This document shows positions 21,300 through 38,519 of a stretch of 50,914 nt of DNA, piece by piece (within the stretch, counting starts at the first letter, position 1; each line of letters starts with the position of its first letter). This DNA comes from Paludibacteraceae bacterium. Its GTDB lineage: Bacteria; Bacteroidota; Bacteroidia; Bacteroidales; Paludibacteraceae. The translations under genes were made by a program, and so were the position numbers. Under the pieces are notes generated by a model. That model saw only the letters and a list, made by a program, of their open reading frames with translations, made no database searches and was not told the origin of the DNA. The DNA lies in NCBI GenBank assembly GCA_017446455.1, contig JAFSQV010000067.1:1-50914 (forward strand), written 5' to 3'.

Positions 21300-22688
21300 T
21301 TATGGTATTATTTTTCCGTATAAATCAAACTCTTCCGCCTTCGTGATCTCCACATTATAGAACTCTCCGACTTTCAACTCCTCCACTTCTTTCAACTCTA
21401 AACTCTCAATTTTCAACTTTTCTATCAGCACTTCGCAATCCACTTCGGGACTGTCGAATTGGGTACGACCAATCCAATAGTCGCCGTCTTGTCGGTCGAT
21501 TATTACGCGCTCGGTCTTTCCTACGAATTTGTTCATCAACTCCGCACTAATCTCCTGTTGGATAGCCATCAGTTCTGCAGCTCGCGCTTCCTTCACTTCC
21601 TGCGGCACGTCGTCTTTATAGTGTTTGTTTGCGTAGGTACCTTCTTCGTCGGAGTAGGCAAAACAACCCATTCGCTCAAACCGCATCGCTTTTATCCACG
21701 TCTTCAACGCTTCAAAATCTTCTTCTGTCTCGCCCGGATGACCCACCAGTAAAGTGGTTCGGATACAAATCCCCGGCACTTTGGCTCGAATCTTCTTTAT
21801 CAACGCATCTTGTTCTGCTTGCGTAATATGGCGCCGCATCAAACCCAACATGTGATCCGTGCAATGTTGCAAAGCAATGTCCAGATATTTGCATACATTC
21901 GCGTGTTTGGCCATTACGTCCAGGATGCCCTCCGGAAAATCGGTCGGGTAGGCATAATGTAGGCGAATCCATTCCACTCCCGGCACCTGCGCTATCTCAT
22001 CTATCAGTTCAGGCAATAGGTGTACCTTTGTACATTGTACATTGTCCCTTTGTACATTCAAATCCAGTCCGTAACTGCTCAAGTCCTGCGCGATGACGTT
22101 TAACTCCTTCACGCCTTGACTCACCAGCCATTTTACTTCCGCTAATATCTCCGCTTTCGGTCGACTTGTATGGCGTCCTGTGATTAGCGGAATGGCGCAA
22201 TAGGAACACATCCGGTTACAGCCCTCCGAAATCTTCAGATACGCATAGTGTTTGGGCGTGGTCAGTTTCCTCTCAAAATTGGAGCAACTTTCTACTTTAA
22301 ACCCTCCAACTTCTTTCAACTTTGAACTTTCAACTTTCAACTTTTCGGTAAGTTCGAGAAAGTCGAATTTACCGAAATAATAGTCCACCTCCGGCAGCTC
22401 GGCTTCGAGTTCCGCGCGGTAGCGCTCACTCAGACATCCCATCACGATCAACTTCCGCAGTTTGCCGTGCTTCTTTCGCTCGGCCATTTGGAGTATCATA
22501 TTGATGCTCTCTTCTTTGGCATCGCCGATAAATCCGCAGGTGTTGATGACACAGATTTCCCCTTTCGGATCTTGTGCATCATGCACGCACTTCCATCCGG
22601 CCGCTTCTAACTGCGGCATCACTCGCTCTGCGTCCACTAAGTTCTTAGAGCACCCCAGCGTTATAAAGTCAATAACTCCTTTTTGCAT
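21300..22688 (-). CDS. rimO: Ribosomal protein S12 methylthiotransferase RimO
   Basis: Radical-SAM methylthiotransferase of 462 residues that modifies an Asp of ribosomal protein S12. The N-terminal cluster cysteines are C13 (TLGCSKN), C51 (NTCGFIG) and C85 (MGCLSERY). The radical-SAM motif is C157, C161, C164 (GCNRMCSYC), and a TRAM domain ends the protein. Three in-frame heptamer arrays lengthen it: residues 114-133 (between the N-terminal and radical-SAM domains), 211-223, and about 422-440 in TRAM. The usual family length is about 430-440, which fits these being extra. The ATG at 22686-22688 is clear. Upstream is a structured repeat element and then recQ. Confidence 0.93.
   Translation of the reverse strand: MQKGVIDFITLGCSKNLVDAERVMPQLEAAGWKCVHDAQDPKGEICVINTCGFIGDAKEESINMILQMAERKKHGKLRKLIVMGCLSERYRAELEAELPEVDYYFGKFDFLELTEKLKVESSKLKEVGGFKVESCSNFERKLTTPKHYAYLKISEGCNRMCSYCAIPLITGRHTSRPKAEILAEVKWLVSQGVKELNVIAQDLSSYGLDLNVQRDNVQCTKVHLLPELIDEIAQVPGVEWIRLHYAYPTDFPEGILDVMAKHANVCKYLDIALQHCTDHMLGLMRRHITQAEQDALIKKIRAKVPGICIRTTLLVGHPGETEEDFEALKTWIKAMRFERMGCFAYSDEEGTYANKHYKDDVPQEVKEARAAELMAIQQEISAELMNKFVGKTERVIIDRQDGDYWIGRTQFDSPEVDCEVLIEKLKIESLELKEVEELKVGEFYNVEITKAEEFDLYGKIIP
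21371..21423 (-). repeat. CTTTCAA-family heptamer array in rimO (TRAM region), 53 bp
   Basis: Two heptamers, the 4-bp interruption ACTT at 21385-21388, then CTTTCAA followed by variants CTCTAAA, CTCTCAA and TTTTCAA and a closing CTTTTCT. Total is 53 bp, the same as the arrays at 37421 and 38467. It is translated in frame as KLKIESLELKEVEELKV. Confidence 0.88.
22021..22056 (-). repeat. TTGTACA/TTGTCCC heptamer array in rimO
   Basis: Units TGTACCT, TTGTACA (twice), TTGTCCC and an 8-bp TTTGTACA follow each other. It is translated on the minus strand as NVQRDNVQCTKV, very like the uvrA array's product. Confidence 0.87.
22288..22347 (-). repeat. CTTTCAA-family heptamer array in rimO (interdomain), 60 bp
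   Basis: Three heptamers, the interruption ACTT at 22309-22312, then CTTTCAA, CTTTGAA, CTTTCAA, CTTTCAA and a closing CTTTTCG. It is one unit longer than the 53-bp relatives and is translated in frame as LTEKLKVESSKLKEVGGFKV. Confidence 0.88.
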
Positions 22689-22753
22689 TTTGTCCTTTTG
22701 CTGTCCCCGCTCGTCGGGGATGTCTCCCCTTGCCGCGTGGCGCTCCCCTTGTC

Positions 22754-22935
22754 TTTATTTATGTTTATCGCTGACGCTGGCATGTCTGGAATGGTAAGCA
22801 ACCTTTGTTGCTGCGGGAATGGCTATCAAGGCGCGCTGCAAGCTTGCTTGTGAGAGCGTTTTGAGAGGCATTTACGCTTTGGGCGCGTGGCCCATAATTC
22901 CGAACATGATAGCGGCAGTGTTTATCTGTGTTTAT
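22754..22935. repeat. Structured intergenic element 1 (multi-hairpin, bounded by TTTAT direct repeats)
   Basis: The 254-bp rimO-recQ gap is mostly this 182-bp element. It begins with TTTATTTATGTTTAT (22754-22768) followed by CGCT, and ends with TTTATCTGTGTTTAT (22921-22935). The inside folds on itself: GGAAT 22788 with ATTCC 22897, CATGT 22781 with ACATG 22904, CGCT 22775 with AGCG 22911, CTG 22771 with CAG 22916. An inner hairpin AGCAA/TTGCT lies at 22797-22812. A second copy with the same ends but different arms lies at 34786-34958. The remainder, 22689-22753, holds a small GC hairpin (CCCCG/CGGGG near 22705-22719) and no promoter I can see. Confidence 0.7.
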
Positions 22936-22942
22936 TTACCAT

Positions 22943-25126
22943 TTAGTTGCCAAGTTCGCAGTGGAACTTCAATCGTACGAGCCTTACGTGCATTTCTTCG
23001 TAATAGTCTTCGCCCAACTCCTCCATCGCCTTGCGGATATTATCGTCGTCGGCGTTCTTGAAGTAGTCGTATATCTCTTCCTCCTCGTCGGGGTCCAGGA
23101 CTTCCTGAATGAAGTAGTTGATATCGATCTTTGTGCCGGAGAACACAATCGCCTCCAACTCGTCCATCATCTCCTCCATCGACATGCCGCAACTCTCCGC
23201 CAAATCGTCGAGGTCGACGCGTCGGTCGATAGCCTGAATGATCTGTTTCTTACGCGTCGACTTCTTCGCTACGGTGCGAATACGCATATCGTCCGGACGG
23301 ATGATTTCGTTTTCCTCCACGTACTCCTTGATGACGCGCAGGAACTCATCGCCATAACGCTTTGCTTTTGCGACACCTACGCCCGGGATGGTCAACAACT
23401 CCTCCATCGTGATGGGGTAGGTCGTAGCCATCGCTTCCAGACTCGGGTCTTGGAAGATCACAAACGGCGGTACATCGTTTTTCTTCGCCACCTTACGGCG
23501 TATATCTTTTAATATCGCGAAGAGCACCTCATCCGCCGCTGCGCACGTGGCAGCTGCGCCGTCCATCAGGTCGTCCTCATCGTTCTGTACCTCAATCGGC
23601 ACTTCGAACTTACCGGGCTTACGGATGAATTTCGTACCTTCTTTGGTGAGTTTCAAATCGCCATACGAATCGACGTCTTTCTTCAGCATGCCGACTACCA
23701 AGGCTTGACGAATGATCGCGTGGAGCGTGCTCTCTTCTTCGTCACTTGCCGCACCGAAATTCTCCAACTCTTCATGGTGGTAACTCAGCACTTCCGCCGT
23801 CTGGTTTCCATGCAGGATATCGACGATATGTTCCGCTTTCTGCTTCTCTTTTACCTGCTGAATGGTCTCCAGAATCAACTGCAGCAACTCACTTGCATCA
23901 ACCTGCTTGTAGGTCTTACGGCAGTTGTCGCAGTTACCGCATTTCTCCTCTGTATATTCCTCGCCGAAATAGTGCAGCAGCAGTTTGCGTCGGCAGATGG
24001 TGGACTCCGCATAACTTTGGGTCTCAAACAGCAACTGGTTGCCGATGCCGATCTCTTTGGGCGTCTTGTCTTTTTGGAAGCGACGCAGACGCTCGATATC
24101 ATCTGGGCTGTAGAAACAGATACACTGTCCTTCGCCGCCGTCTCGGCCTGCGCGACCCGTCTCCTGGTAATATCCCTCAAGCGATTTCGGGATGTCGTAG
24201 TGTACTACAAAGCGTACGTCCGGTTTGTCGATACCCATACCGAAGGCGATGGTCGCTACGATGACCTGCACTTCCTCCATCAGGAACGCATCCTGGTTCG
24301 CGGAGCGTGTCGCTGCGTCCATACCCGCGTGGTAGGGCCGCGCGGAGATACCGTTCACTTTCAGCACTTCTGCCAAGTCCTCCACTTCCTTGCGAGCCAG
24401 ACAGTAAACAATACCGCTCTTGCCTTCCATACTGCGTATGTAACGCACAAGATCCTTATCTACATCTGCCGTCTTTGGCCGTACTTCGTAATATAGGTTC
24501 GGACGATTAAAACTCGACTTGAAAACGGTTGCGTCCGGCATGCCGAGGTTCTTCTGGATATCCTTCTGCACCTTCGGTGTCGCCGTAGCCGTCAAGGCAA
24601 TGATCGGTGCCTTGCCGATGCGTTGCACCATACTGCGGATCTGGCTGTACTCCGGACGGAAATCGTGTCCCCACTCCGAGATACAATGCGCCTCATCGAC
24701 GGCATAAAAACTAATCTTCACGCCCTGCAGGAAGTCCACGTTCTCATTCTTCTGCAAACTTTCCGGCGCCAGATATAATAACTTCGTTCGTCCGCTCAAC
24801 ACATCGTCCTTCACTGCATTGATCTCCGGACGACTCAGACTCGAATTGATGAAATGCGCCACACCCGGCTCTTCCGAGTAGTTACGCATTGCATCTACCT
24901 GGTTCTTCATCAACGCAATAAGCGGCGAGATAACAATCGCCACGCCATCCATGATCAACGAGGGTAATTGGTAACAGAGACTCTTTCCTCCACCGGTCGG
25001 CATCAATACAAAGGTATCGTGACCATCCATCACATTGCGGATGATCGCCTCCTGATTGCCTTTGAACGTGTCAAAACCAAAATGCTCCCTCAGAGCTCCC
25101 ACTAACTGTTCATGTGTTACTTCCAT
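22943..25126 (-). CDS. recQ: ATP-dependent DNA helicase RecQ
   Basis: 3'-5' helicase of 727 residues. Helicase motifs are MPTGGGKSLCYQLP (Walker A, residues about 41-54), VDEAHCISEWGHDFRPEY (DEAH box), LTATATPKVQ, and QETGRAGRDGGEGQC (motif VI). A zinc-binding Cys set (CRRKLLL, then CGNCDNC) and winged-helix RQC domain follow. The HRDC-like domain lies at about 565-640 (LLTIPGVGVAKAKRYGDEFL). A long acidic C-terminal extension to residue 727 is common in Bacteroidota RecQ. The start at 25126 is preceded by its own promoter. This is the first gene of the minus-strand run, and no promoter is evident between it and rimO. Confidence 0.95.
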   Translation of the reverse strand: MEVTHEQLVGALREHFGFDTFKGNQEAIIRNVMDGHDTFVLMPTGGGKSLCYQLPSLIMDGVAIVISPLIALMKNQVDAMRNYSEEPGVAHFINSSLSRPEINAVKDDVLSGRTKLLYLAPESLQKNENVDFLQGVKISFYAVDEAHCISEWGHDFRPEYSQIRSMVQRIGKAPIIALTATATPKVQKDIQKNLGMPDATVFKSSFNRPNLYYEVRPKTADVDKDLVRYIRSMEGKSGIVYCLARKEVEDLAEVLKVNGISARPYHAGMDAATRSANQDAFLMEEVQVIVATIAFGMGIDKPDVRFVVHYDIPKSLEGYYQETGRAGRDGGEGQCICFYSPDDIERLRRFQKDKTPKEIGIGNQLLFETQSYAESTICRRKLLLHYFGEEYTEEKCGNCDNCRKTYKQVDASELLQLILETIQQVKEKQKAEHIVDILHGNQTAEVLSYHHEELENFGAASDEEESTLHAIIRQALVVGMLKKDVDSYGDLKLTKEGTKFIRKPGKFEVPIEVQNDEDDLMDGAAATCAAADEVLFAILKDIRRKVAKKNDVPPFVIFQDPSLEAMATTYPITMEELLTIPGVGVAKAKRYGDEFLRVIKEYVEENEIIRPDDMRIRTVAKKSTRKKQIIQAIDRRVDLDDLAESCGMSMEEMMDELEAIVFSGTKIDINYFIQEVLDPDEEEEIYDYFKNADDDNIRKAMEELGEDYYEEMHVRLVRLKFHCELGN

Positions 25127-25162
25127 ACTTGTGCTTTTCCTTCACTTTCTCAATTTGGGCTA

Positions 25163-25193
25163 CAAAAGTACGAATAATTTTTTATATGTGCAA
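25163..25193 (-). promoter_or_regulatory. recQ promoter
   Basis: Read on the minus strand, TTG (25193-25191, in TTGCACAT) is followed after 20 bases by TACTTTTG (25170-25163). This is the TTG-N20-TAnnTTTG form seen at the other promoters here. Confidence 0.7.
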
Positions 25194-25275
25194 TACCCTT
25201 CGCGATTTTTTGCAAAAAATACGTAATTTTTCTTATCTCTTTTCACTTTCATCGCATATTTAACAAATCAAACAG

Positions 25276-25298
25276 TATTATATACATAGTATATAATA
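25276..25298. promoter_or_regulatory. Perfect 10-bp inverted repeat (TATTATATAC / GTATATAATA)
   Basis: Arms at 25276-25285 and 25289-25298 with spacer ATA. The core TATAC-ATA-GTATA recurs, in mirror form, at 45450-45470 in another divergent intergenic region. It could be a dimeric-regulator operator; no regulator gene is in the window. Confidence 0.5.
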
Positions 25299-25311
25299 CA
25301 TAGAACAGCGG

Positions 25312-25330
25312 AAAAAAGGGAACCTTTTTT
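25312..25330. terminator. A/T-rich inverted repeat with T-run
   Basis: AAAAAAGG (25312-25319), spacer GAA, CCTTTTTT (25323-25330). The perfect 8-bp stem ends in a T-run and could serve as a weak bidirectional terminator or as part of a palindrome cluster. Confidence 0.4.
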
Positions 25331-25360
25331 CGTTGATAGCGGGCTCATTCGAATACCCAT

Positions 25361-25381
25361 TGTAGTTACTTTGTAACTACA
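25361..25381. promoter_or_regulatory. Perfect 9-bp inverted repeat (TGTAGTTAC / GTAACTACA)
   Basis: Arms 25361-25369 and 25373-25381 with spacer TTT. It is the third perfect palindrome within 106 bp of the recQ-MFS gap. It lies about 215 bp upstream of the MFS promoter. Function unknown. Confidence 0.5.
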
Positions 25382-25410
25382 CGTGTATGAGAATGATGAA
25401 CGCGCAGTGC

Positions 25411-25454
25411 GTGATAAGTGCGTGATAAGTGCGCGGTAAGTACGCGGTAAGTAC
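25411..25454 (+). repeat. 11-bp tandem array (GTGATAAGTGC / GCGGTAAGTAC)
   Basis: Two copies of GTGATAAGTGC (25411-25432) are followed by two copies of GCGGTAAGTAC (25433-25454), 44 bp in all. The rest of the 545-bp recQ-MFS gap (25127-25671) holds the two promoters and three palindromes listed separately; I see no gene in it. Confidence 0.88.
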
Positions 25455-25596
25455 GAGATTATTGGGATTCGGTAGGGGAGCTGTCAAGGTCCTTTCAGGG
25501 ACCGCTACATCTCGGGGCTATCCGGCAATAAGCACGCTATATTTCCTTCAAATTAAGAAAAAAATAACATTTTTTACAAAAAAATGCATATACCTC

Positions 25597-25627
25597 TTGC
25601 GTATTCCAGAAAAATGTTGTAATTTTG
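25597..25627 (+). promoter_or_regulatory. Promoter of the glycan-uptake operon (MFS to SusD)
   Basis: TTG at 25597-25599 (TTGCGTAT) and TAATTTTG at 25620-25627, with 20 bases between. The start codon is 44 bases downstream. Confidence 0.72.
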
Positions 25628-25671
25628 CGGCCGATTTGTAAAGTTTACTTGACAAAATACCATAAAACAAC

Positions 25672-27015
25672 ATGCAGAAACGAAATTTATCCTTTGCGCA
25701 ACTCTTCAATCTGAGTTTTGGATTTTTCGGAGTACAGATTGCTTATGCGCTGCAGAGCGCTAACATCTCCCGTATTTTTGCGACCCTTGGCGCAGATCCT
25801 CACACCTTGAGTTTCTTCTGGATTCTCCCGCCGTTGATGGGTATGATTGTTCAGCCGCTGGTCGGCAAGTATAGCGACAAGACATGGAATCGTCTGGGTC
25901 GTCGTAAACCCTATTTGCTCGTGGGCGCGCTCATTGCGGTTGCGGTGATGCTGTTGCTTCCGAACGCCGGTGACTTTACGTTTACCCAATCGGTCTTCTT
26001 GGGCCTGAATGCCGCAATGTGGTTTGGTCTGTTCAGCCTTATGTTCCTTGATACCTCGATTAATATCGCGATGCAGCCGTTCAAGATGATGGTGGGCGAT
26101 ATGGTCAATGAGGAGCAGAAGGGTACGGCCTACGCTATCCAATCGGCGCTCTGTAACGCCGGTTCGGTGGTAGGATACCTCTTCCCGATCTTCTTTACTT
26201 GGATCGGTATTGCTAACGAGGCGCCGGAGGGTGTTATTCCTGATTCCGTGAAGTGGTCCTTCTACGCAGGTGCAGCGATTCTCATCCTCTGCTCGCTTTA
26301 TACCTTCGCTACCGTGAAGGAGTTGAACCCGCAGGAGTATGCGGAGTTCCACGGTATTGACCCGAAGAAGAAAGACGAGGAGGACAAAGAAAAAGGATTC
26401 ATTGATTTGCTCAAAGAGGCTCCGTCCGCTTTCTGGACCGTTGGTTTGGTTCAGTTCTTCTGCTGGGCGGCCTTCATGTATATGTGGACCTATTCGAATG
26501 GTGCGATTGCCGCTAACTGTTATGGCTGGGACGGCATCAATGCGGCTGATGCTGCATTCCAGAACGCGGGCAACTGGGTAGGCGTGGTCTTCTGTGTACA
26601 GGCTGTAGGTTCGCTCCTTTGGGCGGCTTTCCTTCCGAAGCTCGAGCATTGGTTTGGTAACAAGGGCGCATACGCGATCTCGTTGCTCGTCGGCGCTGTC
26701 GGATTTATCTCCGTCTATTTTGTAACGAACGCATATGTCCTCTGGCTCAGTTACGCGCTCATCGGTGCAGCGTGGGCAGCAATGCTGGCTTTGCCCTTCA
26801 CGATTGTGACCAATGCCATCAAGGGCGGTAACATGGGATACTACCTCGGCTTGTTCAACTGTACGATCTGCGTGCCGCAGATTGTCGCAGCCCTCTGCGG
26901 AGGTTTACTCCTTAAATATATATGCGCGCACGTACAAGCAGGTATGCTGGTGGTAGCCGGTGTGCTTCTCGTCTTGGGTGCTTGCTCCGTCTTCTTAATC
27001 AAAGAGAAGGAATAA
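25672..27015 (+). CDS. MFS sugar transporter (SLC45/sucrose-maltose-like)
   Basis: A 447-residue inner-membrane protein with about 12 helices. The cytoplasmic loop GKYSDKTWNRLGRRKPYLL and the beginning FAQLFNLSFGFFGVQIAYALQSANISRIF are typical of SLC45-like sugar transporters found in Bacteroidota glycan loci. A charged central loop (DPKKKDEEDKEKGF) separates the halves. It probably imports the oligosaccharide or disaccharide released by the outer-membrane system; the specific sugar is not visible, but galactose-handling genes lie nearby. It is followed by a CTAG array and a lipoprotein gene. Confidence 0.87.
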   Translation: MQKRNLSFAQLFNLSFGFFGVQIAYALQSANISRIFATLGADPHTLSFFWILPPLMGMIVQPLVGKYSDKTWNRLGRRKPYLLVGALIAVAVMLLLPNAGDFTFTQSVFLGLNAAMWFGLFSLMFLDTSINIAMQPFKMMVGDMVNEEQKGTAYAIQSALCNAGSVVGYLFPIFFTWIGIANEAPEGVIPDSVKWSFYAGAAILILCSLYTFATVKELNPQEYAEFHGIDPKKKDEEDKEKGFIDLLKEAPSAFWTVGLVQFFCWAAFMYMWTYSNGAIAANCYGWDGINAADAAFQNAGNWVGVVFCVQAVGSLLWAAFLPKLEHWFGNKGAYAISLLVGAVGFISVYFVTNAYVLWLSYALIGAAWAAMLALPFTIVTNAIKGGNMGYYLGLFNCTICVPQIVAALCGGLLLKYICAHVQAGMLVVAGVLLVLGACSVFLIKEKE

Positions 27016-27018
27016 TCC

Positions 27019-27066
27019 CTAGTTCTCTAGGATTTCTAGGATGTCTAGGACTTCTAGGACCTCTAG
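27019..27066. repeat. Intergenic CTAG array (six copies, 8/9-bp period)
   Basis: CTAG at 27019, 27027, 27036, 27045, 27054 and 27063: one 8-bp step and then four 9-bp steps. It begins three bases after the MFS stop (27013-27015) and fills most of the gap to the lipoprotein start at 27099. Confidence 0.88.
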
Positions 27067-27098
27067 TTAAAATAACTAACAAACTAAAATATCTATTT

Positions 27099-28082
27099 AT
27101 GAAAAACAAACTACTTGTAAGTGTATTCGCAGTGGCGATAGCAGTTTTTGCTTTCACTTCTTGCGAGCCCAAGTCTAATGTGACGGAGGTTTGTACCGAC
27201 CTGCTGAAGGGAACGTTGCATGGCGTGGCTGCCGCTTCGGGTGATGCCCCGAGCGCTACGCGCGGTTTTGTGAAAATCGACGGTTCGACGCTCCTCCTCG
27301 CTGAGTATGAATTCCCGTCTAAAGACGTGAATGATTCGCGCTTGTTGTATCGCGAAATCGCGTTCGGCGATGGTTCCTTCGTTCCGAAGAAAGTGGACAC
27401 ACTGAGTTATGAGTATGGTGAGTGGCAAGACCAGAACACCGTCTTTACCTTGCTCGTTACGCCGAAGGCGGGTGATCCGTACATTCTGAAGTATCGTGGC
27501 GATGCCCTCATCGCACCGGATGGACGTGCTTTCGGAGGTTCTACGTCTTTGAGCTCTGCGCGTGTGGAGAAACTGGAGAAAGTGATTGGAACCTTCCCCA
27601 ATACCGATTGGGAGGCCACTTTCCGAGGCGAATTTGTAACGGACAGCGTTTTTAGAGATTCCATCAGAGTAACCTTCGTGCCGCCGATGTCGTTTAAGTA
27701 CGATACTATCAAGGTCTTCGACCATATGGATACGGTCAGTGCGGATACGACGTGCTACTACAAGTTGATCTTTAACCGTGAGCCGGGTACATTTGCCAAT
27801 ACCGGACATTACTATCGTAAGCAATTCCGTTCGACCTACGATCGCGAAACCAAAGAAACGACGATTGTTAGCGAGAGCGTAAACGTATATGAGTATGACT
27901 TCCGTTGGATGTTTAGCGAGTTGGCTACAGACGCGAAGTTTACGGTGCAGTTGACTAACACCTCGCAGCCGGGCGTAGAGGGAGAGAAACTGAGTATTGC
28001 CAGATATACGCTGGATTCTCTCGGCGTAGCATCTGAGTTTGCGCTTGGCGGTTTGACTTATAAGCGTCCCGTACAACCTTAA
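27099..28082 (+). CDS. Putative surface lipoprotein of the SusCD locus
   Basis: A 327-residue lipoprotein. The ATG at 27099 opens MKNKLLVSVFAVAIAVFAFTSC with lipobox FTSC (Cys22). Longer in-frame starts read through the MFS gene and the CTAG array and are rejected. The mature part is mainly beta-strand-like, with DGSTLLLAEYEFPSKDVNDS, WEATFRGEFVTD, and repeated Thr/Tyr strands. I recognise no family. Its position between the transporter and SusC suggests a glycan-binding or accessory surface lipoprotein. Confidence 0.7.
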   Translation: MKNKLLVSVFAVAIAVFAFTSCEPKSNVTEVCTDLLKGTLHGVAAASGDAPSATRGFVKIDGSTLLLAEYEFPSKDVNDSRLLYREIAFGDGSFVPKKVDTLSYEYGEWQDQNTVFTLLVTPKAGDPYILKYRGDALIAPDGRAFGGSTSLSSARVEKLEKVIGTFPNTDWEATFRGEFVTDSVFRDSIRVTFVPPMSFKYDTIKVFDHMDTVSADTTCYYKLIFNREPGTFANTGHYYRKQFRSTYDRETKETTIVSESVNVYEYDFRWMFSELATDAKFTVQLTNTSQPGVEGEKLSIARYTLDSLGVASEFALGGLTYKRPVQP

Positions 28083-28114
28083 TCTGATATGAACTGACAA
28101 AATCATTTGCAACA

Positions 28115-31366: not shown

Positions 31367-31370
31367 TAAC

Positions 31371-31391
31371 ATCGTAAATCGTAAATCATAT
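31371..31391 (+). repeat. Short heptamer array (ATCGTAA) between susC and susD homologues
   Basis: ATCGTAA occurs twice (31371-31384) followed by the variant ATCATAT (31385-31391). It occupies most of the 30-bp gap and ends five bases before the SusD start codon. Confidence 0.65.
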
Positions 31392-31396
31392 ATATT

Positions 31397-33163
31397 ATGA
31401 GAAGTATTTTGAAATATATGGCTCTGGCTTGTGTCGCAGTGGGAATGGCTTCCTGCGTACAAGACCTGAATACCGAGCCGATTGATCCGAACTCTTCGAC
31501 TTCCTTTAACCAGGATCGTATGTTCACCAAGTGCTACGCCTGCATGGCTGTCATTGGTCAGTCCGACCCGGGAAGTGACTCGGATGTAGAAGATATGGAT
31601 GCCGGTATGTCCGGTTTCTACCGTACTATCTGGTATTGCAACGACCTGACGACAGATGAGGCATTCTGGATTTGGGACGATGCAGAGTCCAGAGGCCTTC
31701 CGACAACCAACTGGACGGGTACCAGCGATATGATCCGCGGTATCTATACCCGTCTGAACCTCAACATCAAGTATTGCAACCACTATCTGGCTTATGCTTC
31801 CGACAAGACCCAGGAAGATCAATATCGTCGCGCAGAGGTAAGATGGATCCGTGCGCTGCACTACTTCTATCAGATGGACTTGTTCCTCTACTCGCCGTTT
31901 GTTATTACCGAGTCGAGTGACTACCCGCACTTCTTGCCGCGTCACGAACTCTATGCATGGTTAGTAACGGAGTTGGAGGATATCATCGCACGCCTGCCTG
32001 AGGTCCGTGTCACCAGATACCGTGTAGATAAAGCAGCAGCCCAGTTACTCTTGGCGCGTATCTACCTCAATGCGGATGTATATAACAAGTACAACGCCGA
32101 GTGGGTGAACGACCAGAACTGGCAGAATGCCTACGAAATGGCTTCGGCGGTTATTGCGAACAATCAGTATGGTCTTGTGAAGGACGAGATCGTTACGGAT
32201 TCGGGCTTTGTGTATTCCGCATACCAGCGACTCTTCATGGGTGATAACGACCGTGCAGATGTGATGAAAGAGGCTATCTTCCAGATCTATCAGGATGGTT
32301 TGTATACCCAGAGTCACGCCGGTGGTAAGTTCTTGATTGCCGGCCCGCGTTACGGCGGTATGAATGCCTGGGGTATTGAAGAAGAGTGGCACGCACTGCG
32401 TCCTTCGCCGACCTTGGTAGATAAGTTCCTCTCGCCGCTGGGTAGTGTGGATCGCACCGCAGCAGAGTTGATCATCTATGACGAGTTTGATATGCCTGAG
32501 CAGTTGAAAGATGACCGTGCTATCTTGTGCTCCTATGGTATGAATACTACCGATCATAAGAACTTCACGCTGAAAGGCGGCATGACCGTAGGTGCCAATG
32601 AGTGCTTCTATGACTGCTGGGCAGGACTGAAATTCACAGGCGTATATTCTTCGGCTGCGAAGCCGCAATACTCGCCGCGTCAGAGCCCTGGTTGGCCGGA
32701 TACCGATATTCCGCTGATGCGTTTAGCTGAGGCGTATATGATCCAGGCAGAAGCTCTCTTCCGTCAAGGAAAGACTTCTGATGCATTGAATATTATCAAT
32801 AACACGATTCGTGCTCGTGCGCATGCCGATGCGTTGCCTTCGCTGAATGAAGAGATCTTGCTCGATGAATGGAGCCGTGAGTTCTGGTTTGAGGGACGTC
32901 GTCGTATGGATCTCATCCGTTTTGGACGCTTCTTCGGTCCGGAGTCTGACCAATATCGTTTCCACTGGGAAGGACGTATGGGCAAGGCAGATATGCCGCC
33001 CGCAGTTAACAGCCCGTTCTTCGTAGCCGGAACTCCGGAGTACATGAACTGGTTCCCGGTTCCCTCCGAGGATAAACGCGCTAACCCGAACTTCAAGAAA
33101 GACGTAGAAGGCGATCCGAACAATAAGTTCGCCGCAGAGGGTGGTGACGGTTATACCTATTAA
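31397..33163 (+). CDS. SusD/RagB-type glycan-binding lipoprotein
   Basis: A surface lipoprotein of 588 residues that forms the lid of the SusC transporter. Lipobox MASC (Cys21) follows MRSILKYMALACVAVG. TPR-like helices are in the first half (YRRAEVRWIRALHYFYQMD, YRVDKAAAQLLLARIYLNAD). The C-terminal SusD signature includes PLMRLAEAYMIQAEALFRQG and EILLDEWSREFWFEGRRRMD, then the RFGRF segment. Glycan specificity cannot be read. Confidence 0.95.
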   Translation: MRSILKYMALACVAVGMASCVQDLNTEPIDPNSSTSFNQDRMFTKCYACMAVIGQSDPGSDSDVEDMDAGMSGFYRTIWYCNDLTTDEAFWIWDDAESRGLPTTNWTGTSDMIRGIYTRLNLNIKYCNHYLAYASDKTQEDQYRRAEVRWIRALHYFYQMDLFLYSPFVITESSDYPHFLPRHELYAWLVTELEDIIARLPEVRVTRYRVDKAAAQLLLARIYLNADVYNKYNAEWVNDQNWQNAYEMASAVIANNQYGLVKDEIVTDSGFVYSAYQRLFMGDNDRADVMKEAIFQIYQDGLYTQSHAGGKFLIAGPRYGGMNAWGIEEEWHALRPSPTLVDKFLSPLGSVDRTAAELIIYDEFDMPEQLKDDRAILCSYGMNTTDHKNFTLKGGMTVGANECFYDCWAGLKFTGVYSSAAKPQYSPRQSPGWPDTDIPLMRLAEAYMIQAEALFRQGKTSDALNIINNTIRARAHADALPSLNEEILLDEWSREFWFEGRRRMDLIRFGRFFGPESDQYRFHWEGRMGKADMPPAVNSPFFVAGTPEYMNWFPVPSEDKRANPNFKKDVEGDPNNKFAAEGGDGYTY

Positions 33164-33217
33164 TAGCAAACTAATGAACATTATATTCATTATTTAATTA
33201 ACATTTATTAACCAATT

Positions 33218-33281
33218 ATGAAGTTTCGTGCTAGTCGAGTGTAAGCTCGCTTACGCAACTCGACGAAGCCGAAACTCCATG
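33218..33281. repeat. 64-bp imperfect palindrome between SusD and the CBM-like gene
   Basis: Nested arms pair: AGTTTCG 33222-33228 with CGAAACT 33270-33276, GTCGAGT 33234-33240 with ACTCGAC 33258-33264, GTAAGC 33241-33246 with GCTTAC 33249-33254, leaving a 2-base tip. The surrounding DNA is strongly A/T-rich while the palindrome is not. AATTATGAAG, the context of the downstream start codon, occurs both just before the palindrome and at the real start at 33315. Confidence 0.7.
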
Positions 33282-33314
33282 ATTAAAAAATTAACCATTT
33301 AAAATTTTTTAATT

Positions 33315-34670
33315 ATGAAGAAATTTTATGCTTTTTTGGCAGCTGCGCTGATGAGTGCATTTGCCTTTGCATCGAAGGACGTTGTTCCGTCGGATGAAGT
33401 GCTCCAGGGCTACTACGACGAGGGTAAGGTATGCGTTTGCTTCTTCGTTCCGGCCGACATGGCTTGTAACGACATCGTTCTGACCGGTTCTTTCAACGGT
33501 TGGAAGAGTAGTGCGGCTGATTGCGTGCCTACTGAGCCGGTAGAGGGTTATGATGGCTGGTATGTAGGTTCTTTCGAGCCCGAAGCTGAGCCGAGTGCGA
33601 CGGATGGTATTTGCGCTAAGCCGGTAATGCTGGACGTTGACGGTAACTTCAACTGGGAGTATCAGGTAGGTGCAGCTACGGCAATCCGCGGTGGTGTGCA
33701 AGTTGTAGAAGGTGCTTATGCAGGTGAGATTGACATGAAGCACTATGGTACCGACGCTCCGAACGTATTCACGGTAGATGCATGGAAGCAGAACCCGTGT
33801 GATGCTGTTTACCACGTTTACACCATTACCGTTATCAGCGATGGTTGCGGCGGCTTGGCAGTTCCGTACGTTGTTGGCGGTATGACTGGATGGGGCTTCA
33901 CCCAAATGCAATTGGATGTAGAGAAGACCATGGAAAATATGGTTCCGACCTATGTTTACACCAAGAAAATGGCTGAGAAAACTCCGTACCAAGTTGTTGC
34001 AGGCTTGCTGAATGCAGAGACCGGTGCGATCGAGGTTGAGCCGGGTTGGAACGATGATTCGTATCTCCAGAAATTAATCGATGAGAAATGGGTTCGTATC
34101 CCGGGTGAGGATGGTGACAACCTCCTGACGCACGAGGATCCGAATATCCTCTTCGACCTTCGCGCAGAGGATCTCCGCTGGGCTCGTTGCGCTCCTGCTG
34201 AGCCGGCTGAGGTAGTTGCTTTCGCTGTTAAACTCCCGACAGAGAATATTCCTGCTGCAGTTGAGGTTATCGGTGGATTTGACGATTGGCAGGGTACTGC
34301 GCTGACTTGGAATCCTTCGACCGACTACTTTGAGGCAACCTTCGAGGCTAAAGCTTCTCAGTTCTTCAAGTTCCGTACAGCTGGTACTTGGGATGATCAA
34401 GAGCTTGAACTCTATGATGAAGGAGAGGATACATGGCGCTTAATCAAAGACAACGAGTTAGTATTTGGTCAACTCTGGGAGGATGCTGCAGAAGGCAAGA
34501 GCCTCGTTCTTGACTTCAGCGACCCGGAGAAGTATCGTTGGCTCGTAAAAGAGCAAGGTATCGAGAACATTACCCTGACCGAGAAGGCTCAGAAAGTGGT
34601 TGTTGACGGTGTTCTCTACATCGTTCGTGACAACAAGATGTTCAACGTACAAGGTACCCAAGTTCGCTAA
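33315..34670 (+). CDS. Secreted protein with FNGW-like modules and T9SS tail
   Basis: A 451-residue exported protein. The signal peptide is MKKFYAFLAAALMSAFAFAS. Three segments resemble the core strand of CBM48/SusE-type beta-sandwich modules: LTGSFNGWKSS (about 57-67), VGGMTGWGF (about 187-195) and IGGFDDWQG (about 317-325). The last 35 residues (GIENITLTEKAQKVVVDG, then LYIVRDNKMFNVQGTQVR) are a T9SS type A sorting domain, so the protein should end up outside the cell or on its surface. It follows SusD in the same direction and may help capture the glycan. No catalytic motif is evident. Confidence 0.75.
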   Translation: MKKFYAFLAAALMSAFAFASKDVVPSDEVLQGYYDEGKVCVCFFVPADMACNDIVLTGSFNGWKSSAADCVPTEPVEGYDGWYVGSFEPEAEPSATDGICAKPVMLDVDGNFNWEYQVGAATAIRGGVQVVEGAYAGEIDMKHYGTDAPNVFTVDAWKQNPCDAVYHVYTITVISDGCGGLAVPYVVGGMTGWGFTQMQLDVEKTMENMVPTYVYTKKMAEKTPYQVVAGLLNAETGAIEVEPGWNDDSYLQKLIDEKWVRIPGEDGDNLLTHEDPNILFDLRAEDLRWARCAPAEPAEVVAFAVKLPTENIPAAVEVIGGFDDWQGTALTWNPSTDYFEATFEAKASQFFKFRTAGTWDDQELELYDEGEDTWRLIKDNELVFGQLWEDAAEGKSLVLDFSDPEKYRWLVKEQGIENITLTEKAQKVVVDGVLYIVRDNKMFNVQGTQVR

Positions 34671-34689
34671 AAACCAGAAAAATAGTCTA

Positions 34690-34717
34690 CTAGTCTACTA
34701 GAATACTAGTCCTCTAG
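34690..34717. repeat. Intergenic CTAG array, 8-bp period
   Basis: CTAG at 34690, 34698, 34706 and 34714, exactly 8 bases apart, with a related TAGT/CTA context on both sides. It starts 19 bases after the stop of the CBM-like gene. The coding copies have a 9-bp period; this non-coding copy has 8. Confidence 0.85.
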
Positions 34718-34731
34718 TCAACTATTAAATA

Positions 34732-34767
34732 AAACAGCCCGGGCATCTGCTCGGGCTGTTTCTTTTA
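34732..34767 (+). terminator. Rho-independent terminator of the glycan-uptake operon
   Basis: AAACAGCCCG (34732-34741) pairs with CGGGCTGTTT (34752-34761), a 10-bp stem with a 10-base loop, followed by a T-rich tract (TTTCTTTT). Confidence 0.88.
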
Positions 34768-34785
34768 TCGGTATTGGCTATGAAT

Positions 34786-34958
34786 TTTATTTATGTTTAT
34801 CGCTAAGCGGAACTTAGGGCATTTACATCCTTCGGATGTGATGGTTCGCCCTGACGGGCTACGTTAAGTTTACTTATAAGTAGGCGCGGTGGGGCGAAAC
34901 ATCGTATTCGCTGTAAGCGATATGCCCTAAGTTACGGTTAGGGTTTATCTGTGTTTAT
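34786..34958. repeat. Structured intergenic element 2 (multi-hairpin, bounded by TTTAT direct repeats)
   Basis: A 173-bp element with the same ends as the one at 22754-22935: TTTATTTATGTTTAT then CGCT (34786-34804), and TTTATCTGTGTTTAT (34944-34958). The outer stem AACTTAGGGCAT 34811-34822 pairs perfectly with ATGCCCTAAGTT 34922-34933. Inner hairpins are ACATCC/GGATGT (34825-34839), GCCC/GGGC (34848-34859) and TCGCT/AGCGA (34908-34920). Its right boundary supplies the stop codon of the beta-galactosidase gene (34955-34957). Confidence 0.72.
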
Positions 34959-37420
34959 TTACATAAAATATAGTTTCCTTTTGCGCCTTTCCGGATAATG
35001 AACGTGCATTGACCGGCGAAGGCGTGCATCTGCGGTTCTACGAACGAGTCTAAGCAGGCTGCATCACCGTTTGCGGCAGCTACAAACCCACTGCCTTCGT
35101 ACTTGATCAGGTTATTGGCTTTCGGGCATAGGTTGCCGTTTTTGTCGACCACCTTCACCGTCATGTAGCACAGTTCCTCGGGATTCTCCTCTTTGTTCGC
35201 CCAGACGATCTCCAAATGATCCGGCTCACCGGCGGTCTTCACTGTCTCGCGCGCAGCCTCTTTGCCTTTTTCATCGAACGCCACTACGGTAATCTCTCCT
35301 GCTTCGAATGGCACATCAAACCACATCAGCCGGTAGCGTGGCAACAGTTCCGGACGCGGCGCACTGCCCCAAACGGGAATATCAAACTCACCCACCTTCG
35401 GCATGGCACTCACGCCTTCGATCGTTTCGCCTTTTGCCAGGCGCTCGGTCTCTTCCGGAGTTGCAAAGCGTAACTTGCCGTAGCTCTTGCCGTTGACGAA
35501 CAACTCCGCGCTCGGATAAGTCGTATAGCAGAAGACAGGTACTAAATCGCCTTCGCTCCAGTTCCAATGCGGCAACACATGCAATGTCGGCTCCTCTTTG
35601 TTCCATTGACTGCGATAGAGCCAGAAGCGGTCCTTCGGCAGCGAAGCCAAATCGATGATTCCGAAATAACTGCTGTGGCTTGGCCAAGCGTCTGTGTCGT
35701 ACGGTGAGGGTTCACCTAAATAGTCAAAACCCGTCCAAACGAACTGACCAATTGTCCAGTTATAATCGTCCTGCAACTGAAAATCCTGCTCCGGCAGACC
35801 TGACCAAGGACAATACTCGACATCATAACCGCTACTCTGGAAATCATCATACATGGCGAAGTCCTTGAGCACGGCAGGAATCTTATATACGCCGCGGCTC
35901 GAGACGGTGGAGGCGGTCTCGGAACCCAGAATCATCTTCTGCGGCAAGTTCTCATATCCCTCTTCATACCGGCTCGTGCGATAATTGAAGCCCGGCAACT
36001 CTACCGCTGCGCCAAAACCGTTATGGATCACGTGCATCGCTTGGTCCATGCCGTTAGTAACAGGGCGAGTAGGGTCGAGTTGGTGAAAGAGTTCTTGGAG
36101 TTTCGTCACGATCTCAATGCCGTCCGGCAGCACTTGGTTCCATACCTCATTACCGCTCGACCAAAGCATCACGCTGGCGTTATTGCGATAGTGCTTTACC
36201 ATATTCGTGATGTCCCATTTCCACCACTCGTTGAATTCCTTATTATAGTCATTCTCCGTCTTGCCCCAGTTCCATACATCGAACGGCTCGATCATCATCA
36301 TCATTCCCATTTCATCGCAGAGCTCTACGAGTTCCGGTGCGGGCATGTTATGACTCGTGCGGATGGCGTCGCAGCCCATCTCCTTCAGCATTGTAATTTG
36401 GTGGCGTAAAGCGTCCTTATCAACCGCCGCGCCCAACGGACCTAAGTCATGGTGATTGCAGACTCCTTTGAATTTACGCGTCTCGCCGTTGAGTTGGAAG
36501 CCATGTTCCGGCGTATACGAAATCGCGCGAATACCAAAGCGTGTGTTGACTTCGTCAACAAGTTCCCCTTCTTCCTTTAACCTTTCACCTTTCATCTTAT
36601 ACACCCGCGTGCGCGCAATGTATAGATTCGGCGTCTCGGGACTCCATAACTGCGGATTCATCACTTCGGCTATGCTCTGTTTGCCTTCGGCCTTCGCTAC
36701 CACTTTGCCCTTATAGAGTATATCGGTCAGAATGCTGATACCTTCTCCTGTAATCTCGTCCACGCCGTTCTGTAGCTCTACATCGATGGTCACTTGCGCA
36801 AATTCCTTGCTCACTTTCGGCGTGCGAATCAGTACACCGAAAGTAGGGATATGAATAGGGTTGGTCTCTATGAGGTGCACATTGCGGTACAAACCTGCGC
36901 CCGGATACCAACGGCTCTGTTGCGGTTTGTTCTCCAAGAAGACATCGATATCGACGCTGTCGCCGGTGATGAGTTGCGGCAATATATAGCAATCGAAGGT
37001 GTTATAGCCGTAAGGCCAATAGACCATCTCTTCGCCATTCACATACACGTCAGCGTGACTCATCGCGCCGTCAAAGACGAGCGTGTAGAACTTATCCTTA
37101 TTCACTTTTACGCGCGTGTGGTAGTGGCCCTTGCCCATCCATGGCAGACCACCGCTACGACCGGTTTTCCAGGTCGGTTCACTCTCGCCGTTCTGTACGA
37201 CAATCACTTCCTGCAAATCGTTCGCGCGATCGAAAGGACCGCTGATGGCCCAATCGTGCGGAATAGTGACGTCCTGCCAAATAGGGTTTTCCGTCGTGTC
37301 TTGGGTGAACTGCCATGCGCGAATCAACGTGTCCGTGCGCACTTGTTTCGTCGAACAGCCACAAAACACCATGCTACCGATTAGCAGCATGGTGTTTACG
37401 ATATTGAAATTAACTTTCAT
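34955..37420 (-). CDS. GH2 beta-galactosidase, lipoprotein
   Basis: Family GH2 glycoside hydrolase of 821 residues. Its N-terminus has a lipoprotein-type signal (MLLIGSMVFCGC, Cys22). The sugar-binding domain has PHDWAISGPFDRAN and SHADVYVNGEEMVYWPYGYN. The TIM barrel has NHHDLGPLGAA and AIRTSHNMPAPELVELCDEMG, with acid/base Glu425 in SSGNEVWNQ and probable nucleophile Glu501 in LGSETAS. C-terminal Ig-like domains include a segment typical of Bacteroidota beta-galactosidases (YLMTVKVVDKNGNL-like). An array of CCTTTCA-like heptamers at 36565-36599 lies in frame (KMKGERLKEEGELVDE). It is the last gene of the galK-galM unit and probably releases galactose in the periplasm or at the surface. Beta-glucuronidase-like specificity cannot be fully excluded. 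Confidence 0.88.
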   Translation of the reverse strand: MKVNFNIVNTMLLIGSMVFCGCSTKQVRTDTLIRAWQFTQDTTENPIWQDVTIPHDWAISGPFDRANDLQEVIVVQNGESEPTWKTGRSGGLPWMGKGHYHTRVKVNKDKFYTLVFDGAMSHADVYVNGEEMVYWPYGYNTFDCYILPQLITGDSVDIDVFLENKPQQSRWYPGAGLYRNVHLIETNPIHIPTFGVLIRTPKVSKEFAQVTIDVELQNGVDEITGEGISILTDILYKGKVVAKAEGKQSIAEVMNPQLWSPETPNLYIARTRVYKMKGERLKEEGELVDEVNTRFGIRAISYTPEHGFQLNGETRKFKGVCNHHDLGPLGAAVDKDALRHQITMLKEMGCDAIRTSHNMPAPELVELCDEMGMMMMIEPFDVWNWGKTENDYNKEFNEWWKWDITNMVKHYRNNASVMLWSSGNEVWNQVLPDGIEIVTKLQELFHQLDPTRPVTNGMDQAMHVIHNGFGAAVELPGFNYRTSRYEEGYENLPQKMILGSETASTVSSRGVYKIPAVLKDFAMYDDFQSSGYDVEYCPWSGLPEQDFQLQDDYNWTIGQFVWTGFDYLGEPSPYDTDAWPSHSSYFGIIDLASLPKDRFWLYRSQWNKEEPTLHVLPHWNWSEGDLVPVFCYTTYPSAELFVNGKSYGKLRFATPEETERLAKGETIEGVSAMPKVGEFDIPVWGSAPRPELLPRYRLMWFDVPFEAGEITVVAFDEKGKEAARETVKTAGEPDHLEIVWANKEENPEELCYMTVKVVDKNGNLCPKANNLIKYEGSGFVAAANGDAACLDSFVEPQMHAFAGQCTFIIRKGAKGNYILCK
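36565..36599 (-). repeat. CCTTTCA-type heptamer array inside the beta-galactosidase gene
   Basis: Units CCTTCTT, CCTTTAA, CCTTTCA, CCTTTCA and TCTTATA follow at 7-bp steps. It is translated in frame as a charged linker (KMKGERLKEEG). Confidence 0.7.
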
Positions 37421-37473
37421 CTTTTAACTATAAAACTTCTTTCAACTTTCAACCTTCAACTTTAAACTTTACA
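37421..37473 (-). repeat. CTTTCAA-family heptamer array between galM and the beta-galactosidase gene, 53 bp
   Basis: Two heptamers (CTTTTAA, CTATAAA), the interruption ACTT at 37435-37438, then CTTTCAA, CTTTCAA, CCTTCAA, CTTTAAA and CTTTACA. It abuts the start codon of the downstream gene (37418-37420) and contains the galM stop (37469-37471), so it is the whole translation-initiation leader. Confidence 0.9.
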
Positions 37474-38464
37474 GAAATCTGTATTCGGTTATTTCGTCTA
37501 ATTTATCACCCGGGCGAAGTACTACATCGGGAAAATCGTCATGGTGAATGCTGTCGGGCCAGTTCTGTGCCTCCAGACATACCGCGTGTTGCTCATCGTA
37601 GATGGTACCACTCTTGCCTTCGTTGCGCTCAATCCAGTTGCCGGTATAGACTTGCAGACCCTTCATGGTCGTCCAACACTCCATCGTGCGTCCGTCAGCC
37701 TCCAGCGTGCAAGCGTGACGTAGCTCTTTCGGCGCATCGCCGGCGCAGAGACAGAAGTTGTTGTCTATTCCTTTCCAGGGCGCAAAGAACGGATCATTCA
37801 TTCGGTCGCCGAGACGCACAGGTTGTCTAAAGTCCATCGGTGTACCCTCCACGGGAACAATCTCTCCGGTCGGACAAGTGAACTCATCGAACGGCGTGAA
37901 TTGCTCGGCATGGACTTGCAGCACGTGATCATCTACACGTCCGCTGTCTTCGCCCGCCAAGTTGAAGTACGAGTGGTTAGTCAACGCCACAAGCGTCGGC
38001 GCGTCAGTTTTCGCCTCGTAATGAATGACGAGTCGGTTGTCTTTCGTTGCCGTATAGGTCACCCATACATCCAGATTGCCGGGATAACCTTCTTCGCCAT
38101 CCTTCGCGCGGTAATGGAGTGTGATTTCGTGTGCACACTGCGCCGTGACGTCCCAGATCTTCGCGTTGAAGCCTTCGAGTCCGCCGTGCAGACTGTTCGG
38201 GCCGTTATTGATTGGCAGATGATATGTCTCGCCGTCCAACTCAAAGACCCCGTCTTTGATACGGTTGGCTACGCGTCCGCAGATCGCGTTGAAATACGTC
38301 TCTTTCGTGCGCCACTCTTCGGCGGTTCGGAAACCCAATACGATGTCTTTGACTTCGCCTTTGCGGTTGGCTACCAGCAGCTTCGTGATCTTCGCGCCGA
38401 GATTGGAAACCTCAACTTTCAGTCCGCCGCTACTCTTTATCGTATAGAATCGTACAAAACTCAT
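37469..38464 (-). CDS. galM: Aldose 1-epimerase (galactose mutarotase)
   Basis: GalM-type mutarotase of 331 residues, interconverting alpha and beta anomers of galactose for GalK. The ATG at 38462-38464 begins MSFVRFYTIKSSGG; a TTG nine bases upstream lies within the repeat array. Motifs are GFRTAEEWRTKETYFNAICGRVANRI, NNGPNSLHGG (catalytic His), LTNHSYFNLAG (second His region), and QVYTGNWIERNEG, with the catalytic-base segment CLEAQNWPDSIHHDDFP. The gaps to both neighbours consist of CTTTCAA arrays. Cytoplasmic. Confidence 0.93.
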   Translation of the reverse strand: MSFVRFYTIKSSGGLKVEVSNLGAKITKLLVANRKGEVKDIVLGFRTAEEWRTKETYFNAICGRVANRIKDGVFELDGETYHLPINNGPNSLHGGLEGFNAKIWDVTAQCAHEITLHYRAKDGEEGYPGNLDVWVTYTATKDNRLVIHYEAKTDAPTLVALTNHSYFNLAGEDSGRVDDHVLQVHAEQFTPFDEFTCPTGEIVPVEGTPMDFRQPVRLGDRMNDPFFAPWKGIDNNFCLCAGDAPKELRHACTLEADGRTMECWTTMKGLQVYTGNWIERNEGKSGTIYDEQHAVCLEAQNWPDSIHHDDFPDVVLRPGDKLDEITEYRFL

Positions 38465-38466
38465 AA

Positions 38467-38519
38467 CTTTCAACTATACAACTTCTTTCAACTCTCAACT
38501 CTCAACGTTCAACTTTGAT
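38467..38519 (-). repeat. CTTTCAA-family heptamer array between galK and galM, 53 bp
   Basis: Two heptamers (CTTTCAA, CTATACA), the interruption ACTT at 38481-38484, then CTTTCAA, CTCTCAA, CTCTCAA, CGTTCAA and CTTTGAT. It has the same build and length as the array at 37421-37473. Its outer end codes for the last residues of GalK (SKLNVES). Confidence 0.9.

Follow-up and report, generated by a model that had tools for sequence, protein, structure and literature searches.

Heptamer arrays with a recurrent out-of-register joint in rimO and between gal genes of a rumen Paludibacteraceae bacterium, one form of a wider class of seven-base repeats

Why do four arrays of the heptamer CTTTCAA, all broken by the same ACTT, occur in two such different settings, inside the gene for RimO and between galactose genes? 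They lie in a 50,914-nucleotide stretch (the window: contig JAFSQV010000067.1 of assembly GCA_017446455.1, positions 1 to 50,914) from a Paludibacteraceae bacterium, an uncultured rumen organism. An earlier note, made from the sequence alone, had argued that they are copies of a defined element, 53 bp in three cases. Our analyses indicate that the interrupted arrays are a subtype of a wider heptamer feature of one rumen Paludibacteraceae genus. Their build in this genome is more regular than chance slippage, yet there is no fixed 53-bp element. We consider it probable (roughly 0.6) that the arrays are lineage-specific filler, recurrently inserted or exchanged, and filtered by reading frame and stop codons.

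Inspection of the window sequence found the four arrays present as described. With up to one mismatch allowed, the 13-base core ACTTCTTTCAACT matched the window four times, every match being exact, one in each array. Among 100 shuffles of the window, the mean number of matches was 0.06 and no shuffle gave four. All four arrays have the same orientation relative to their host genes, as had been claimed. The arrays and the core matches (hereafter joints) are:

21371..21423, minus strand: interrupted heptamer array at loop site 3 of rimO, in frame, in the part encoding the TRAM domain (sequence and open reading frame, ORF)
22288..22347, minus strand: interrupted heptamer array at loop site 1 of rimO, in frame, between the UPF0004 and Radical SAM domains (sequence and ORF)
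37421..37473, minus strand: interrupted heptamer array at the galM/beta-galactosidase joint, running from the stop of galM up to the start codon that follows (sequence)
38467..38519, minus strand: interrupted heptamer array at the galK/galM joint, containing the galK stop codon (sequence)
21385..21397, minus strand: 13-base joint ACTTCTTTCAACT, reading AGTTGAAAGAAGT on the coding strand (core match)
22309..22321, minus strand: 13-base joint (core match)
37435..37447, minus strand: 13-base joint (core match)
38481..38493, minus strand: 13-base joint (core match)

The draft genome that contains the window (G000; 1,837,816 bases in 100 contigs, 80% complete) has 13 copies of ACTTCTTTCAACT in 11 arrays. 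Ten of 24 same-genus relatives also carry the 13-mer, with 72 copies against 3 for the reversed control and the largest number (21) in G010. The five copies found in 4 of 16 genomes from other families are at chance level (control 4). A CTTTCAA pattern search was positive in 20 of 37 genus members, the own genome included, and in 1 of 24 other-family genomes; only these genus counts are used, since CTTTCAA reversed is a rotation of itself and the reversed control is therefore uninformative. Among the genomes searched, the joint and the unit are restricted to one genus. Own arrays were sought by local score in 27 stretches around repeat matches plus the window, and 47 heptamer arrays were found, 11 with the interruption and 36 without it, in flavours that include CTTTCAA, CTTTCAC, TTTTCAA and CTTTAAA.

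The interrupted arrays share a recognizable build. Read in the GTTGAAA sense, the joint AGTTGAAAGAAGT is usually followed by five free bases and then by a stretch resembling AGTTGAAAG. The spacing after the joint was exactly five bases in 29 of 49 distinct contexts, 12 bases (five plus one unit) in seven and some other distance in five, with none in eight; these contexts are partly orthologous and hence not independent. The CTTTCAA-side arm, which lies upstream of the joint in this sense, holds four units in 9 of 13 own joints when up to two mismatches per unit are allowed. Four is also the commonest number in six relatives (13 of 30 joints, loci being given for 30 of their 48 copies of the 13-mer). 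With up to one mismatch per unit, four is still the mode in the own genome (6/13); in the six relatives it accounts for 7/30 and one unit is commonest (11/30). Downstream of the joint the unit number is free. By local score the 11 own interrupted arrays span 39-114 bp, the four in the window 51-60 bp, and array C57 contains three joints. The printed sites showed no constant outer ends, no inverted ends and no target duplications. Thus, the shared interruption was borne out, with ACTT recurring in 11 own arrays and 10 of 24 relatives and the upstream arm favouring four units in this genome, but the 53-bp length was not. A fixed 53-bp element with defined ends is not supported, given the variable lengths, the lack of constant ends or target duplications in those sites, and unit variants that are not shared beyond chance.

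Searched de novo, period 7 was the commonest in all four samples (the window, 275 kb of the nearest relative, 55 galM neighbourhoods and 29 rimO neighbourhoods), and shuffles gave no run. These samples yielded a list of 52 heptamer unit types. The nearest relative, G103, which has the most similar RimO (89%), contained 68 arrays of 35 unit types in 1.0 Mb; 25 of the 35 types occur once, and AAAGGTG is dispersed, with 13 occurrences. The commonest whole-copy number in G103 was four at each of the score thresholds 10, 12 and 14 (34 of 68 arrays, and 40/84 and 45/113 at the two lower thresholds). A steady fall of copy number with length, by which slippage-born simple repeats are recognized, was not seen, the mode being four and two-copy arrays under-detected. 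Arrays inside genes are tightly sized, with 24 of 35 measuring 30-34 nt. Pfam matched 8 of 10 array-bearing ORFs scanned, and the matches include rimO, a class I tRNA synthetase, a ribosome-binding GTPase, IspD and a signal peptidase. Two candidate properties of the units were rejected: mirror symmetry (8 of 52 types vs 6.5 expected) and a stop triplet on only one strand (29 of 52 vs 27.5 expected). Because the latter is near expectation, the units are ordinary and their placement alone is biased. The window also holds a 4.7-copy ATTGGTG array at 49751-49783.

The bias in placement is one of orientation. At own same-strand gene joints, GTTGAAA was sense in 22 and antisense in four (p 0.0005), although the 22 include the window's two gal arrays, which had prompted the question. 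In 19 of these 22 sense joints, the upstream stop codon lies inside the array or no more than 5 nt away. In G103, a stop triplet was present on the sense strand only at 15 of 25 joints, on the antisense strand only at one, on both at eight and on neither at one. The 35 in-gene arrays of G103 gave 9, 18, 1 and 7 for the same classes, and the difference between 15:1 and 9:18 is significant (Fisher p 0.0001). Purine content separates joints less well (16 above one half, eight below), so stop codons account for the orientation rule better than purine-rich leaders do. GTTGAAA presents TGA once per 21 nt in each frame, and the interruption shifts the frame, so that this lattice of TGA codons is broken inside rimO. 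The joint was present in 4 of 8 in-gene sense arrays vs 7 of 39 others, an enrichment that is suggestive only. Overall, 19 of 47 own arrays and 35 of 68 in G103 were classed as inside ORFs.

The host genes of the window arrays illustrate both settings:

21300..22688, minus strand: rimO, 462 aa, hosting two interrupted arrays and a third repeat of another family at 22020-22057 (ORF, Pfam, PDB)
22020..22057, minus strand: 38-nt repeat of the TGTACA/GGGACA type, in frame at loop site 2 of rimO (sequence)
37469..38473, minus strand: galM-like gene flanked by both intergenic arrays (ORF)

The 462-aa ORF is a single frame and was identified as RimO by Pfam (UPF0004, Radical_SAM and TRAM_2) and by PDB 4jc0 (E 1.2e-81), in agreement with the placement of two arrays inside this gene. 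The site 3 array reads GTTGAAA on the coding strand and is translated as KLKIESLELKEVEELKV; the site 1 array is translated as KLKVESSKLKEVGGFKVES. The names galK, galM and beta-galactosidase come from the earlier note and are presumably correct, since they agree with known sequences. The other two arrays do fill the galK-galM and galM-beta-galactosidase joints, but their description as leaders is incomplete, as they also provide coding ends: the galK stop lies inside one array, giving a protein end of ...KLNVES, and the beta-galactosidase start codon resembles a repeat unit. Arrays of this kind explain why predicted proteins of this group contain odd stretches such as KLKVESS. As RNA, the four window arrays did not fold beyond shuffles (z -0.68 to 1.24), and a hairpin or terminator reading was dropped.

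We then compared the rimO loops across species. The search covered 101 genomes and matched 100, about six of them with no more than a paralogue-level hit (E about 1e-43 to 1e-48). Of 30 loci retrieved, 29 were read, the motif used having missed L097. Across these 29 genes, three loops are variable, after FGKFDF, SYGLDL and DCEVLI. They hold other heptamers elsewhere (e.g. GTCGAAA, ATTGGTC, ATTGGAA, GCACAAT, AATTAAA and GGTTAGC), eight- and nine-base repeats, palindromic pieces or plain sequence, and the RimO of Thermotoga maritima (4jc0) has gaps at all three places. Orthologues therefore carry other sequences where the window has its arrays, and this includes the closest relative at site 3. 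Besides the own genome, L072 and L074 alone of 28 other species read have GTTGAAA-type repeats at site 1. All three genomes have the AAG insertion, which points to inheritance at this site. At site 2, the own genome and L072 share 38 identical nt, although identity between their rimO genes is 77% beyond the loops; the closer relative G103 lacks this repeat. Away from the three sites, the own and G103 genes are 92% identical, and most of their divergence is concentrated around these sites; the surroundings of site 1 in L074 (77-80%) are no closer than the 77% background. On these grounds long-tract recombination was rejected. A GTACA/GGGACAA repeat related to the site 2 type lies at 19106-19158 of the window, in frame in a 926-aa ORF that we take to be UvrA-like.

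The gal junctions were similarly variable. A galM-like protein search gave 63 loci, the nearest from uncultured rumen Bacteroidales and Paludibacteraceae (e.g. RUG372 and RGIG4850), and 52 of them were compared (L125, L130 and L134 are without a flank, and L155-L162 belong to other phyla or are distant). The galK-galM joint is an overlap or a single-base spacer in at least 9 of 52 rows, and other rows have spacers composed of a wide range of repeats. L107, L112 and L154 also have the interrupted GTTGAAA array between galM and the beta-galactosidase gene; at this joint, stop and start codons overlap as ATGA in at least 12 of 52 rows. Upstream of galM in L184, L196 and L107, heptamer arrays are divided by an insert that follows the pattern TTCTTATCTC..GAACGATC..GTATGGATAG, its inner parts being variable.

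Replacement was also evident in the comparison with G103, where 17 of the 47 own arrays have both flanks in the 1.0 Mb sample. Five arrays were kept (L044, L045 first, L054 second, L060 and L063 first), one with one unit more and one with different variants. Five were absent, the G103 sequence being shorter by 42 nt (L045 second), 42 nt (L054 first), 45 nt (L055), 47 nt (L062) and 35 nt (L068) between flanks 94-98% identical. The remaining seven (L052, L056, L059, L063 second, L069 and rimO sites 1 and 3) had other sequence, partly other repeats, with flank identity from 75 to 97%. One comparison aligned seven own/G103 pairs; the L066 pair did not align.

Based on these observations, we propose that blocks of about four seven-base units may be written or copied into sites that tolerate extra DNA, such as operon gene joints or enzyme loops, and that fitting arrays would then be retained by selection. 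This would accommodate the observed positions, orientation, length mode and replacement between species. At gene joints, the stop-bearing strand mostly lies in the sense direction. Since a unit of seven is not a multiple of three, every frame meets a stop within 21 bases; the upstream gene often ends in the array itself, which also becomes the leader for the gene that follows. In-gene arrays more often present the stop-free strand, or variants in which the lattice of stops is broken. The interrupted arrays, with units, then AAGT, mostly five free bases and further units, may represent two blocks joined out of register, a joint seen at 11 places in the own genome and probably inherited across species at some sites. 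Selection is the likely cause of the orientation rule, and we infer that dispersal proceeds by copying between arrays, perhaps through template switching or short-tract gene conversion, and that some mechanism writes the blocks.

Several observations weigh against this proposal. No copying event with both donor and recipient was observed. At matched positions, unit variants were shared 31 times vs 26.3 expected (p 0.12, calculated on 10 of 13 joints, without C100 and two of the joints in C57), and shared variants were dropped as proof of direct copying. Similarly, the longer motif GAAGNCGTCTAG, seen at some joints, was not enriched over its control (16 copies vs 35 for the reversed motif in the own genome and 24 same-genus relatives) and was dropped as an element core. 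Joint arrays of G103 are widely spread in length (22-67 nt), and two-copy arrays are penalized by the score; in-gene arrays are therefore the main support for a mode of four copies. Of the absences in G103, 42, 42 and 35 nt are multiples of seven; 45 and 47 are not. All four interrupted loci compared (L055, L062 and both in rimO) are absent or replaced in G103, and the 13-mer does not occur in the 1.0 Mb sample of that genome; either gain in the own lineage or loss in G103 could account for this. The site 1 array common to L072 and L074 would require loss in G103. Finally, gene starts were set by a simple ORF rule, which could misplace them at TTG codons within arrays.

Another explanation is that the interrupted array is a small non-autonomous mobile element moved by a transposase or similar enzyme. 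The same joint in 11 own arrays, the four-unit arm, the five-base spacing and the array-free orthologous sites of the nearest relative all favour such an element, but the outer ends are variable, the printed sites revealed no inverted ends or target duplications, and the joint is missing from 36 of the 47 own arrays of the class. PF01797, the REP-type transposase family, had no match in the own genome or in the carriers G001, G006 and G012. Because the own genome is 80% complete, its negative is no proof, and the family is present in 5 of 15 same-genus relatives searched, including one match over the cut-off in G010, the genome with most copies of the 13-mer. We rejected a REP-type transposase as the mover and regard a mobile element in general as unlikely.

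Somewhat less probable still is simple-sequence slippage, in which arrays would grow in place from chance seven-base duplications, often across a stop codon. Many bacteria have an excess of heptamers, and a polymerase footprint of 7 that would favour this length has been proposed (Mrazek 2007, as cited in PMC4692102 and PMC4679880). The locus that differs by one unit from G103 and the 25 unit types found once there are what slippage would produce. The copy number peak at four, units as dispersed as AAAGGTG, an identical odd joint at 11 loci and the loss or gain of five whole arrays between closely matching flanks are not.

We are more doubtful about an active writing process in the genus that would insert blocks of nearly any sequence, about four units long, replace them, and swap them between species with little flanking DNA. 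The basis for such swaps is the 38 identical bases at rimO site 2 in genes otherwise 77% identical. An enzyme such as a polymerase, primase or reverse transcriptase, re-aligning by seven bases, would suit this process. If it exists, the genus would be a place to watch short repeats arise and to test the bacterial preference for seven.

Functional control, with heptamers binding a protein or forming a leader that sets downstream translation, is very improbable: the sense orientation, the contact with start codons and the translational role suggested for TAACTGA repeats (PMC4679880) agree with it, but orthologous joints have other units or no spacer, about half of the G103 arrays (35/68) lie inside ORFs, and the RNA of the window arrays has no fold beyond shuffles.

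How do these arrays relate to known repeats? The STRR heptanucleotide repeats of cyanobacteria comprise several heptamer families per genome, as here, although the units differ, and we know of no interrupted build among them. Rickettsia palindromic elements, of about 100-150 bp, are inserted in frame in conserved enzymes at tolerant places. The arrays resemble them in their in-frame insertion in conserved proteins (rimO and others), but those in the window are shorter (51-60 bp) and have no stable fold. Unlike REP/RAYT elements, the window arrays show no palindromic fold beyond shuffles, and G000 has no PF01797 match.

PMC4692102 cites a Calothrix STRR case and describes the heptamers GGGAATC and GGGGA(C/T)T of Xanthomonas and Nostoc as G-rich, quadruplex-linked and mainly intergenic. 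The Xanthomonas repeats have a four-unit majority, like the four-unit peak here. In contrast, our arrays are not G-rich, which weakens a quadruplex cause for the number four, and their replacement is fast where the Xanthomonas and Nostoc repeat regions are called stable. Closest in layout are the TAACTGA direct repeats of Beggiatoaceae, Cyanobacteria and five Bacteroidetes, including Paludibacter propionicigenes (PMC4679880, the source for this comparison). That paper notes that heptamers are the commonest long simple repeats in most bacterial genomes rich in them, with no accepted reason. TAACTGA repeats share the seven-base unit, in two to six copies, in the main genome; the forward orientation to the next start codon, as in our 22 sense and 4 antisense joints; and the stops in all three frames with overlap of upstream stop codons, a logic already stated there. 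Some sets also lie in ORFs, and strains differ by indels in steps of 7 nt. TAACTGA repeats lie mostly between genes; here, 19/47 own and 35/68 G103 arrays were classed as inside ORFs. By eye, none of the 52 listed types is a rotation of TAACTGA or of its complement, the units here being CTTTCAA/GTTGAAA and variants. A literature search on heptamer arrays in Bacteroidota or elsewhere found no paper on the CTTTCAA/GTTGAAA unit. The earlier view that no such Bacteroidota family had been described therefore holds for this unit within that search, but not for the layout, which is much the same in the published TAACTGA arrays. The arrays are real, but one form of a wider, partly known kind of bacterial repeat. 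Unlike TAACTGA repeats, they have different units at the same sites in different species, occur in frame in core enzymes and include a subtype with a recurrent out-of-register joint; these traits, and a four-unit mode without G-richness, are what the present arrays add. The genus offers more than 50 unit sequences in the samples read, filled and empty sites between close relatives, and an orientation rule. A process favouring seven, and how far stop codons and frame alone shape repeat locations, can now be tested.

Other repeats also occur in the window. An eleven-base tandem array, AGTGCGCGATA, lies at 25406-25459, and G103 has a similar 11-mer array (L182). Nine- or eight/24-base tandem arrays at 2157-2196, 12585-12625, 27026-27066 and 34672-34724, most with CTAG, form another repeat family. 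Thirty-base direct repeats at 20502-20585 encode an EPE-rich stretch in a 385-aa ORF.

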